NCBI GenBank assembly: GCA_913775095.1
Contig: CAJYIW010000019.1
Span: forward strand, 434,001 to 498,000
From: an uncultured Siphonobacter sp.
GTDB taxonomy: Bacteria; Bacteroidota; Bacteroidia; Cytophagales; Spirosomataceae
Direction: 5' to 3'
Length of the DNA stretch: 64,000 bases
The translations under genes were made by a program, and so were the position numbers. This document shows positions 49,920 to 56,418 of the stretch, piece by piece; positions within the stretch are counted from its first letter, which is position 1, and every line of letters starts with the position of its first letter. Under the pieces are notes generated by a model, which saw only the letters and a list, made by a program, of their open reading frames with translations, was not told the origin of the DNA and did no database searches.

Positions 49920-49970
49920 CCTATTGAAATGGGTTATCCCAAGGAGGATTTACCCGGATTCATTCGCATT

Positions 49971-50747
49971 ATGTCTGATAAGAAACCAATCATTCTCGTT
50001 ACCAACGACGACGATATTACAGCCAAAGGCATTAGTGTACTGGCAGAAGCCATGCAGGCTTTGGGAGAAGTCATTGTCATTGCTCCCGACCGTCCGCAAT
50101 CGGGCCAGGGTCATGCCATTACCATCAATCATCCCGTTCGCATCAAAAAAGCCCGCTTTTTTGAAAACGCAGAAGTGGCTTACGAAACCACCGGTACCCC
50201 CGCCGACTGCGTAAAAATGGGAAAACACCTCATCCTGAAGGATCGTAAACCCGATCTGGTTGTTAGTGGGATCAATCACGGCAGTAACACCGCCATCAGT
50301 ATTCTGTATTCAGGAACGATGTCGGCAGCCATGGAAGCCGCCATTGAAGGCATTCCGGCGATTGGCTTTTCCCTGGCCAACTATCACCCGGAAGCCGATT
50401 TTTCACACACCGTCGAAGCCATTCAAACGATTGCCCGTCAAGTGCTGGAAAAAGGCCTGCCCAAGCACGTAGCCCTGAATGTAAACTTTCCCGCAAAGTC
50501 TGAAGAACCCTTAAAAGGAATCAAGGTGTGTCGTCAGGCGGATGCCCGTTACCTGGAAAGTTTTCAGCAACGCGAAGACCCCTACGGACGCCCCTACTAC
50601 TGGCTGGATGGCGACTTTGTTAACTTCGACGAGGGTAACGATACGGACGAATGGGCCTTGGCTAATAATTACGCATCCGTAGTTCCCTGCAAATGTGACC
50701 TGACGGCCTACGCCACGATGGAAGTCCTGAAATCCTGGGATTTATAA
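49971..50747 (+). CDS. surE: 5'/3'-nucleotidase SurE
   Basis: A 258-residue protein starting MSDKKPIILVTNDDDITAKG; the NDD metal-binding motif is at residues about 12-14 and VIAPDRPQSGQGHAIT near 40 and SGINHGSNTAISILYSGTM near 92-110 complete the active site. SurE dephosphorylates nucleoside monophosphates and short polyphosphates in stationary-phase physiology. The frame is open back to ATG 49929, adding 14 residues absent from the family; an AAGGAGG sequence at 49941 is too far from either start to decide the matter. Confidence 0.94.
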   Translation: MSDKKPIILVTNDDDITAKGISVLAEAMQALGEVIVIAPDRPQSGQGHAITINHPVRIKKARFFENAEVAYETTGTPADCVKMGKHLILKDRKPDLVVSGINHGSNTAISILYSGTMSAAMEAAIEGIPAIGFSLANYHPEADFSHTVEAIQTIARQVLEKGLPKHVALNVNFPAKSEEPLKGIKVCRQADARYLESFQQREDPYGRPYYWLDGDFVNFDEGNDTDEWALANNYASVVPCKCDLTAYATMEVLKSWDL

Positions 50748-50749
50748 GC

Positions 50750-50873
50750 GTTTGAGCTGGTTAGCAGCTGTTTGATGACGTTTAAACTGGTTTGAAACGT
50801 AAGAAGACGTATAGTCTGACCTCAAACCCAATCAAACATCTTTCTCAAACTCTTTAACTACGTTTTATCAAAC
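50750..50873. repeat. Dyad-symmetric element of phased GTTTGA / TCAAAC words (copy 1)
   Basis: GTTTGA starts at 50750, 50770 and 50790, with GTTTAA at 50780, a 10-base period. After a centre with the small hairpin AGAC-GTATA-GTCT (50805-50817), TCAAAC starts at 50822, 50832, 50845 and 50868. Left and right words are placed almost symmetrically around position 50810, so the strand could fold into a long interrupted hairpin. It fills the space between surE and the GH3 gene. Confidence 0.75.
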
Positions 50874-53929: not shown

Positions 53930-54577
53930 TCAGCTCCCGGCAATCCAGATTTCTACCTGCCGATAAAATAAGTAAAGGCCCGTTCCCACAAAAACAGCCC
54001 CGCTGACGCGGTTTACCCAGGTAATGACCGTCGGGTTGAGAAAGCGTTTGATTCGCTGGGCAAAAAAGGCAATGGCTACCTGCGTTAGGAAAATGGCCAG
54101 CAGACAAGCCACGAAGTAGGCAATTCTTAAATCCAGTTCGTATTTCAGAACGCCTTTGACATAGGCCGAAACCGACACCCAGATAATGAAGTTGGCCGGA
54201 TTTGTGGCATTGAGGGTAAAGCCGATGCCAAAGAATTTCAGAAACTGGAAAAATCGCGTCTTAGGCTGAGTAACGGGAATCTGAGCCCCGGCCCGCCGAA
54301 TGGTGCTGGTCCCCATCGCGATGAGGAAAATAGAACCGGCAATTCGCAGAAAGGTATCGAAATGGGGAAAATTAGGAATGAAGGACGTCCCGGTTAAGGC
54401 AACAAAGATGAAAATCGAATCACAAAAGATGACTCCCGTAGAAATTCGTAATCCACTTTTCCATCCATAATCAAGGCTGTTACGGATCAATGAAAAAAAC
54501 ACGGCTCCCAGGGTGATACACATCACAAATCCGGACGAGAATCCGAGAAAGAGAGCTTCCCAAAACTGTAAAGTCAT
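53930..54577 (-). CDS. LysE/RhtB-family amino-acid exporter
   Basis: A 215-residue protein with about six membrane helices. It begins LQFWEALFLGFSSGFVMCITLGAVFF, whose small-residue-rich first helix pair is typical of LysE/RhtB transporters, and has IGFTLNATNPANFIIWVSVSA near 125-145, matching the conserved NP segment of the family. It would export amino acids or derivatives; the substrate is unknown. The upstream region is filled by the second GTTTGA element. Confidence 0.87.
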   Translation of the reverse strand: MTLQFWEALFLGFSSGFVMCITLGAVFFSLIRNSLDYGWKSGLRISTGVIFCDSIFIFVALTGTSFIPNFPHFDTFLRIAGSIFLIAMGTSTIRRAGAQIPVTQPKTRFFQFLKFFGIGFTLNATNPANFIIWVSVSAYVKGVLKYELDLRIAYFVACLLAIFLTQVAIAFFAQRIKRFLNPTVITWVNRVSGAVFVGTGLYLFYRQVEIWIAGS

Positions 54578-54618: not shown

Positions 54619-54764
54619 GTTTGAGCAAGTTTGAAAAATTTGAGGTTGTTTGAAAGTCAGATGACGTTTGAGTAATTACGATCAATCGTTATTTAACTTT
54701 CAAACCTCTTCAACCTTATTTCATCAAACGTGTCAAACACGCTAAACATCAAACCTGATTAAAC
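54619..54764. repeat. Dyad-symmetric element of phased GTTTGA / TCAAAC words (copy 2)
   Basis: GTTTGA starts at 54619, 54629, 54648 and 54666, with ATTTGA at 54638: steps of 9 to 10, or twice that. The centre is the palindrome ACGATCAATCGT (54678-54689). On the right, TCAAAC starts at 54700, 54724, 54733 and 54749, with degenerate copies TCAACC (54710) and TTAAAC (54759). The words pair across the centre at 54683.5. It lies between the LysE start and the NUDIX stop and covers the last few NUDIX bases. Confidence 0.78.
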
Positions 54765-55307
54765 GCCTCTCAGACGAGCTACTTTCAATAAGCCGTAAAC
54801 GCTCAGGGAATCCGTTATTTGATTGCTCATGACCATGTCAATGGCTTCCGCTAGCGGCAATTTCCAGAGTTGCAGAACTTCCGTTTCATCGAATTCGGTT
54901 TCTCCCTGCTCCAGATTTTCAGCCACAAAAATGAAACCTTCTTCGTCCGTTACGGAGTTAGAGGTATGAATTCGGCCGATCATTTCCCATTTCTGGGCGG
55001 TAAGTCCGGTTTCTTCTTTCAATTCACGCTGAGCGGAAAGCAGGGTATCCACGTCAATATTACCACCGCCCATCGGAATTTCCCAGGAATATTCCTCCAG
55101 CGGATACCGATACTGGCCTACCAGCCAGGTGTTACCTTCCTGGTCAATGGGAATGATGCCGATGGCTTTGTTTTTGAAATGGGCTACTCCATAAATGCCC
55201 GGTGTTCCGGCAGGCGTAATTACTTCTTCGTGGCGAAGGCTAATCCAGGGGTTATCGTACACTTCCTTTGAAGAGACGGTTTTCCAGGGAGATGGTTCAG
55301 TTTGCAT
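54759..55307 (-). CDS. NUDIX hydrolase (ADP-sugar pyrophosphatase-like)
   Basis: From ATG 55307 (MQTEPSPWKTVSSKEVYDNP) the protein has 182 residues. The Nudix box is GGGNIDVDTLLSAQRELKEETGL near residues 87-109; the REL(x)EE core is intact while the first glutamate of the consensus is replaced. VYDNPWISLRHEEV and VGQYRYPLEEYSWEIPMG match the ADP-ribose/ADP-sugar pyrophosphatase subgroup. It would hydrolyse nucleoside diphosphate derivatives. The frame is open for 75 more codons upstream, but this extension crosses the promoter box, so the shorter start is right. The -7 box ends four bases before the ATG. Confidence 0.9.
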   Translation of the reverse strand: MQTEPSPWKTVSSKEVYDNPWISLRHEEVITPAGTPGIYGVAHFKNKAIGIIPIDQEGNTWLVGQYRYPLEEYSWEIPMGGGNIDVDTLLSAQRELKEETGLTAQKWEMIGRIHTSNSVTDEEGFIFVAENLEQGETEFDETEVLQLWKLPLAEAIDMVMSNQITDSLSVYGLLKVARLRGV

Positions 55308-55310
55308 GGT

Positions 55311-55318
55311 GCAAAAAT
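55311..55318 (-). promoter_or_regulatory. -7 box of the NUDIX gene (TATTTTTG), immediately before its start codon
   Basis: On the minus strand TATTTTTG, then CACC, then the ATG. Transcription would begin at or next to the start codon, suggesting a leaderless message. Confidence 0.6.
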
Positions 55319-55351
55319 AGGACATGACCGTGGTTCCGGCATTTAAATCCT

Positions 55352-55359
55352 TAATTTTG
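55352..55359 (+). promoter_or_regulatory. -7 box of the CDF transporter gene (TAATTTTG)
   Basis: TAATTTTGCACG lies 43 bases before the transporter ATG and 34 bases from the divergent NUDIX box. Confidence 0.55.
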
Positions 55360-55401
55360 CACGCCCAAGTTTTCGCACGAGGGTTATTTTTTTTAAAAGC
55401 C

Positions 55402-56418
55402 ATGTCCTTAAGTAAAAAACAGCAACTCATCTGGTTATCGTTTGGGGTAAGCGTTGTATTGATGCTGCTCAAGTTTGTAGCCTGGTGGTTGACGGGTTCC
55501 AGTGCCATTTTATCGGATGCTCTGGAATCCATCGTAAATGTACTGGCCAGCGGATTTGCTACCTACAGCGTCTACCTGGCCTCCCAGCCCAGTGACTTAA
55601 ACCACCCCTACGGTCACGGGAAAATTGAATTCTTCTCCGCGGGCCTTGAAGGAGTTCTGATCCTGCTTGCCGGTATTTTCATCATCATTCAGGCCGTCCG
55701 ACAGTGGATTTACCCCGAACCGATTCAAAAACTGGATACGGGGATGTTACTCGTGGCCATTACCATGGTCGTGAATTACGCGGTGGGTTATTTCGTGGAG
55801 AAAGAAGGCATCAAGCAGTCTTCGCCTTCTCTGATTGCGGACGGCAAACATTTGCAGCTCGATGCCTTTTCGACTCTGATTCTTCTTTTCGGAATTGGAC
55901 TGGTGCTGTTATCCGGATTTCTCTGGCTTGATCGACTCATTTCAATCGTATTTGGGGTAATTCTGATTTTCAATGGATTTCAGATTGCCCGGAAATCGGC
56001 AGCCGGTTTGATGGATGAAGCGGACGACGCTACAGTGAAGCAAGTAGTAGAGATTCTCAAAAATCACCGGAAAGAATACTGGATTGACATTCATAATCTG
56101 AGAATCCAGCACTACGGATCGGATTTACACATCGACTGTCACCTTACCTTACCTTATTACTGGGATCTGGAGAAAGTGCACACCGCCGTCCATGAAGTAG
56201 AAGCCATTATTGACCTGGAGTTCAACTCCCGGGTGGAGGTCTTCATTCACGTTGATCCCTGTCTCCCCGCCTGCTGTCATCACTGTCAGTTAAAAAACTG
56301 CCCCGTTCGTCAGTATCCCAACATGAAGAAGATCAAATGGAACCGGGAGAATCTGGTCTTAAATCAGAAGCATTTCCTGCTGGCACTGGACGGCAATCAG
56401 GAGCCTGATTCTCCATAA
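55402..56418 (+). CDS. Cation diffusion facilitator (CDF) metal transporter
   Basis: A 338-residue protein starting MSLSKKQQLIWLSFGVSVV. Six membrane helices cover about 10-215; the metal-site helix carries SAILSDALESIVNVLASG near residues 34-51 and HPYGHGKIEFFSAGLEG near 68-84, both CDF signatures. The cytoplasmic domain follows (about 220-300), ending in a Cys/His cluster (CLPACCHHCQLKNC) that may bind zinc or another metal. It would export Zn2+, Fe2+ or a similar ion in exchange for protons. The frame extension to 55324 crosses the promoter. Confidence 0.92.
   Translation: MSLSKKQQLIWLSFGVSVVLMLLKFVAWWLTGSSAILSDALESIVNVLASGFATYSVYLASQPSDLNHPYGHGKIEFFSAGLEGVLILLAGIFIIIQAVRQWIYPEPIQKLDTGMLLVAITMVVNYAVGYFVEKEGIKQSSPSLIADGKHLQLDAFSTLILLFGIGLVLLSGFLWLDRLISIVFGVILIFNGFQIARKSAAGLMDEADDATVKQVVEILKNHRKEYWIDIHNLRIQHYGSDLHIDCHLTLPYYWDLEKVHTAVHEVEAIIDLEFNSRVEVFIHVDPCLPACCHHCQLKNCPVRQYPNMKKIKWNRENLVLNQKHFLLALDGNQEPDSP

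Follow-up and report, generated by a model that had tools for sequence, protein, structure and literature searches.

REP/BIME repeats of enterobacteria and pseudomonads have inverted symmetry and many intergenic copies per genome, and are built on a conserved 20-40-bp palindromic unit with a GTAG/CGTC tag. They are found in convergent and co-directional gaps and rarely between divergent genes (PMC3733652), often at most 15 nt from a stop codon (PMC12306157). BIME-2 elements are gyrase sites in E. coli, where the gyrase motif comprises a ~35-bp central part between two ~47-bp flanks with a period of 10.75 bp (PMC6379681). The TAACTGA direct repeats of Beggiatoaceae, cyanobacteria and a few Bacteroidetes have a 7-bp period, lie mostly just upstream of start codons and have no known binder (MacGregor 2015, PMC4679880). 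Inverted symmetry behind genes is also seen in intrinsic terminators, which have a compact G+C-rich stem and a U-tract.

Here we describe elements in which GTTTGA words face TCAAAC words across a centre, a family of which no description was found in the literature searched. Like REP/BIME, the elements have inverted symmetry and many intergenic copies per genome, and their placement is that of REP/BIME: intergenic, in convergent or co-directional gaps, close behind stop codons. Unlike REP/BIME, they have no conserved palindromic unit and no such tag; only the 6-bp word is common to the copies, and spacers, centres and word spacing vary. With the TAACTGA repeats they share one fixed short word, many intergenic loci and a patchy distribution across distant genera, but the word is different, the arms face inward behind stop codons and the period is ~10, so that membership of the TAACTGA type was rejected on word, orientation and position relative to genes. 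Compared with intrinsic terminators, the elements have neither the compact stem nor the U-tract, and their word is conserved without pair compensation.

Two inward-facing word arrays in the window

The window is a stretch of 64 kb from an uncultured Siphonobacter, and it contains two elements. Copy 2 (54619-54764) has a left arm on the forward strand (54619..54671) with four exact GTTTGA words at 54619, 54629, 54648 and 54666 and one ATTTGA at 54638, a centre of 28 bp (54672..54699), and a right arm on the reverse strand (54700..54764) with four exact TCAAAC words at 54700, 54724, 54733 and 54749 together with TCAACC (54710) and TTAAAC (54759). The word positions given in the earlier note are correct, three of the 11 words having one mismatch each. 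The palindrome reported there for the centre, ACGATCAATCGT (54678-54689), is present but imperfect (10 of 12 positions), and the centre that contains it is not kept in the orthologue. Copy 1 (50750-50873) has three GTTTGA words and one GTTTAA (50780) in its left arm (50750..50795, forward strand) and four TCAAAC words in its right arm (50822..50873, reverse strand). Copy 2 has an inward-facing word score of 8.87 and copy 1 one of 7.02. No other place in the window scores above 2.25, and 200 simulated 64-kb windows (first-order Markov) reach 2.95 at most. As word arrays, both copies are far above chance.

Both copies adjoin stop codons. Copy 1 begins 2 bp past that of a SurE gene (49929..50747, forward strand), and copy 2 begins at that of a NUDIX gene (54759..55532, reverse strand), which is contained in the outermost TTAAAC (54759). 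The next co-directional gene behind copy 2 is of the LysE type (53930..54577, reverse strand). Pfam matches around the two copies are SurE, GH3, PGA_cap (CapA-like), LysE and NUDIX, which confirms the GH3, CapA-like and LysE genes that had been read from the sequence.

A dispersed family in three genera

The source genome is 5.65 Mb in size, and 24 copies of the element were catalogued in all parts examined. Thirteen lie within 1.25 Mb of contiguous sequence, which extrapolates to ~60 per genome. The pattern GTTTGA-N3-33-GTTTGA occurs 354 times in the source genome, compared with 109 times for the pattern read backwards, and the pattern of two left words and one right word occurs 55 times, compared with none backwards. 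Inward-facing word pairs outnumber outward-facing pairs by 118 to 15 (P = 5×10−21). When inward-facing arrays of 6-bp words were searched for de novo in 1.65 Mb of two Siphonobacter genomes, GTTTGA was the word in 12 of the 15 found, and no other word recurred among them. On average, an element has about four words in each arm, GTTTGA on the left and TCAAAC on the right, around a centre with a median length of 26 bp; the arms have a median length of 45 bp and the whole element of 140 bp.

GTTTGA arrays were found in five of the six sampled Siphonobacter genomes, the source included, and were absent from S. aquaeclarae. The same word and the same architecture are present in genus g33 (same family, GC 54%) and in all three genomes of genus g75 (another family of the same order, GC 37-38%). 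The word is thus constant across three genera with GC of 37-54%, and the spacers differ between genera. Nearly all the other genomes scanned (390 in the order and 395 in the phylum) score zero, and the few single matches among them resemble isolated hits. In one genome from another genus of the family, three identical matches to the strict GTTTGA pattern (G063:C1:3055, 50558 and 6806214) look like a repeat of fixed sequence. For most catalogued elements in comparable regions, a related species has an orthologous element at the same gene. The suggestion of a common genomic repeat class is therefore borne out, both genome-wide and at orthologous genes of related genomes, where the earlier note had proposed to look.

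Several origins were considered and rejected. Among 2.9 million viral contigs there are 89 single-contig matches to the strict pattern, and of the contigs scanned for arrays just four attain so much as a low score, which argues against a phage origin. GTTTGA shows no notable enrichment outside arrays, which argues against an uptake sequence. As for REPs mobilised by a RAYT, a RAYT-like Y1_Tnp gene of the source genome (G000:C19:365616-366173, L192; 185 aa, HVH motif) is flanked by other palindromes and by no GTTTGA arrays, a test that covers this one gene, and no Y1_Tnp match was found in carriers G060 and G020. The flanking palindromes are a long repeat pair beginning GTTCCAAGTGTTAAGCTC, and together with the RAYT-like gene they are probably the true REP/RAYT or TIR system of the source genome. 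In genus g75, an intact Y1_Tnp gene (79917-80255) has a pair of overlapping GTTTGA-N4-GTTTGA matches (G285:C112:79631-79656) at a distance of ~260 bp.

Two loci of the source genome depart from the common architecture. A half element (G000:C19:773564, L209) has eight TCAAAC words and lacks the left arm; it lies in a convergent gap and adjoins an apparent canonical terminator. At G000:C5:206700-207025 (L228), the arms are ~170 bp apart with unrelated palindromic sequence between them, as if another repeat had been inserted into the centre.

Arrays with other words in related genomes

Inverted arrays of other short words were observed in related genomes and were not found named in the literature searched. 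Within a joined stretch of 400 kb in S. aquaeclarae (G152:C8:225500-625499, L350-L369), four near-perfect palindromes of the word TCTGTG with 9-bp word spacing (offsets 120058, 139828, 142033 and 274585) lie in convergent gaps, 1-10 bp from a stop codon, with identical spacers in three of them. They appear to be a dispersed family built on a different word. S. aquaeclarae also has inward-facing heptamer arrays close behind stop codons. Other genera of Cytophagales have inward-facing arrays of locus-specific heptamers (TGGATRY, GGATTTR, AATGATR, CAATTAA, AAGTGGT and others; L081:6910, L085:1873 and 3676, L077:7908 and 9537, L092:1019 and 4553, L120:7037), and the source genome has two (G000:C19:54190-54299 and 189592-189767; L176 and L183), with the words TGAGTTT and GTTTAGG, both adjoining stop codons. 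These arrays resemble the GTTTGA elements in facing inward and, in S. aquaeclarae and the source genome, in lying close behind stop codons. They differ in having 7- to 9-bp units, often in near-perfect hairpins, and a word that mostly changes from locus to locus, TCTGTG being the one that recurs, four times in 400 kb. The arrays of S. aquaeclarae near stop codons suggest that gene-end word arrays may occur more widely, each lineage with words of its own.

Placement and terminators at gene 3' ends

Measured from the stop codon, the median distance to the element is 6.5 bp, with 42 of 54 gene ends no more than 26 bp away, and a further 51 bp (median) separates the element from the next start; in the other carriers the placement is the same, with a median of 5 bp past the stop codon. 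Between convergent, co-directional and divergent genes, 10, 34 and 6 elements were counted, respectively, against a background of 85, 372 and 183 gaps, so that divergent gaps are depleted of elements (P = 0.013), a value that is optimistic, as are the placement P-values in general, because orthologous copies were counted separately. Some neighbouring genes were misplaced by our simple gene caller, which scored copy 2 as divergent although it lies behind the NUDIX gene; the number of divergent sites is thus more likely too high than too low. No promoter was apparent behind the co-directional elements, TANNTTTG being present at 0 of 20 sites, several of which have start codons misplaced by the gene caller.

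We defined canonical terminators as a hairpin plus a U-tail, with shuffled sequences as the control. Among co-directional gene ends, 223 of the 384 that lack an element have such a terminator (17% in shuffles), compared with only 4 of the 29 that carry an element (10% in shuffles; P = 3×10−6). At convergent ends, the difference is not significant (94 of 142 without and 8 of 18 with an element, P = 0.12). When gaps were matched for length minus the element, the contrast weakened (5 of 29 vs. 38%, P = 0.04), because many elements lie in gaps that are otherwise short and operon-like. The near-shuffled rate of a hairpin with a U-tail at the co-directional ends speaks against the element itself being an intrinsic terminator; termination or attenuation by the elements is plausible. 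Direct replacement of a terminator was also rejected, since the S. aquaeclarae sites corresponding to copies 1 and 2 have neither an element nor an obvious canonical terminator, although the comparison at orthologous sites comprises five sites, too few. The element at the copy 1 site is absent from BAB-5405 as well as from S. aquaeclarae.

Folding and base pairing

The placement of elements in transcribed gaps directly past stop codons, and the smaller number of intrinsic terminators there, are compatible with a role at the RNA level, an explanation that we regard as a serious rival, though less likely than not. GUUUGA and UCAAAC arms would pair in many registers to form a long imperfect hairpin, or would be bound as RNA, and would thereby protect the upstream message, end transcription or slow the terminating ribosome, as REP hairpins do. 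The predicted RNA fold of copy 2 is good (z = -4.6), but copy 1 has none to speak of (z = -0.9). Across 51 elements, the mean z is -1.0 against a null that keeps the words, 12 of the 51 falling below -2 and thus out-folding it; with spacer shuffling confined to each arm, the mean is -0.85. Word spacing is mirrored across the centre, only slightly. Mirrored spacers of equal length near the centre show full complementarity in 9 of 32 cases, where ~4% would be expected, so that some elements have true palindromic cores. On the GTTTGA strand, the spacers of both arms are poor in C (about 9%) and the centres are balanced; left arms are therefore C-poor and right arms G-poor, so that the arms would pair with each other and not with themselves. 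This C-poverty could go back to a founder unit without C or reflect selection, the substitution pattern being not decisive for avoidance of C after allowing for composition. The near-perfect hairpins formed by arrays of other lineages at equivalent positions also speak for an RNA-level role.

The orthologue alignments speak against it. Compensation at predicted pairs is 6.8%, not above the null of 5.2%, and none of the 42 changed word-word pairs is doubly compensated, so no RNA covariation above the null level was found in these orthologue pairs, and the paired structure for which the earlier note had proposed a covariance analysis did not emerge. A structured or known RNA family was likewise rejected, with no Rfam match at the elements. 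Furthermore, a hairpin requires no universal word, yet one word is used at dozens of loci in three genera. The word is thus retained for its sequence rather than for a helix, and this in turn makes a trans-acting reader probable.

Conservation of the word

In low-gap alignments of orthologous elements, 726 of 747 word positions are identical (97%), compared with 807 of 954 in the spacers (85%; P = 5×10−20) and 1655 of 1798 in the 60-bp flanks (92%). Across all orthologue pairs, the corresponding identities are 93%, 75% and 87%. Between copy 2 and its orthologue in SORGH_AS_0500, words are identical at 48 of 48 positions and spacers at 61 of 85. The two arms are equal both in number of words (142 proximal and 149 distal) and in conservation, 78% and 74% of their words being intact. 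Purifying selection thus acts on the GTTTGA word in both arms, with no base-pair compensation, and the impression that it is the word that is conserved has been put into numbers.

It is against this contrast that a neutral or selfish repeat has to be judged, in which 7-11-bp units would have spread through slippage and inverted copying, the word being simply the founder's sequence, and would have expanded in gaps behind genes, where harm is small. We consider it unlikely. There are clean tandem runs (13 units of GTTTGAAT and five of GTTTGATATG), and units are gained and lost in whole steps between orthologues, with 5 vs. 13 copies of GTTTGAAT at one orthologous site; the presence/absence pattern is insertion-like, divergent gaps are avoided, and the locus-specific heptamer arrays of relatives resemble such a process. 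However, at fixed sites the words are conserved four times better than the spacers, the spacers diverge faster than the flanks while the words remain almost static, and non-orthologous copies have the word in common and not the spacers. Since slippage keeps spacers and words alike, the contrast lies beyond slippage. The short tandem drift proposed earlier does explain the changes in unit number, but it leaves the unequal conservation of words and spacers and the recurrence at dozens of loci in three genera unexplained; pure tandem drift is not supported. The earlier note would have taken the element for an old tandem repeat if compensatory changes and recurrence elsewhere were both lacking. 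Compensation is indeed not above the null, but the recurrence is massive.

Spacing of words and the centre

Neighbouring words are 7-11 bp apart, most often 10 bp (73 pairs), followed by 9 bp (26) and 8 bp (22), with echoes at 20 and 30. The arms have no phase relation to each other (P = 0.55), and in genus g33 the period is near 8.5, which rules out strict helical phasing. Of the phasing first noticed, the preference in neighbour spacing holds and the helical coherence across arms does not. The centre ranges from 0 to 107 bp in length, with clustering at 20-28 bp, and AACGT is enriched in centres (12 of 38 vs. 1.9 expected, orthologues included). The median proportions of centre, arms and whole element resemble those of the E. 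coli gyrase motif, but it is very improbable that the elements are strong BIME-2-like gyrase wrapping sites, whose periodic arms would wrap the GyrA C-terminal domains on both sides of a cleavage centre and relieve supercoils behind genes, given the variable centre, the absence of phase coherence across it and the confinement of the elements to a few genera although gyrase is universal.

A proposed word-specific reader at gene 3' ends

The account that we favour, tentatively, is that of a 3'-end element family read by a putative trans-acting, word-specific factor, most simply on DNA. The factor would recognise GTTTGA in double-stranded DNA. There, all the words of the two arms are one and the same site, so a DNA-binding reader is the simplest; an RNA reader is less simple because it would need two different RNA words equally. 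The word is conserved as sequence and equally in both orientations, as befits an array of DNA-binding sites. Several molecules may load on each element, facing each other across the centre, and the bound cluster could affect RNA polymerase as it passes, or the local topology of the DNA, at gene ends, forming a bidirectional boundary for termination or attenuation or for the anchoring of supercoils. Tandem slippage would gain and lose units while selection retains the word. Several results count against a DNA reader: the arms are not helically coherent, the terminator deficit is weaker after length matching and not significant at convergent ends, some elements have complementary central spacers, and a position next to stop codons is also compatible with a role of the RNA.

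It is conceivable, although rather unlikely, that the elements belong to a patchy Bacteroidota system in which a putative protein on GTTTGA arrays sets up bidirectional boundaries that replace intrinsic terminators, with other words in other lineages. Our data separate arrays in which the word is conserved from arrays in which the palindrome seemingly is, two kinds that are usually pooled as hairpin repeats, and close relatives offer a natural comparison, S. aquaeclarae being without the elements. If a protein does read the arrays, dozens of bacterial genes would have an undescribed factor at work at their 3' ends, and the precise recognition word would make that factor easy to purify and test.
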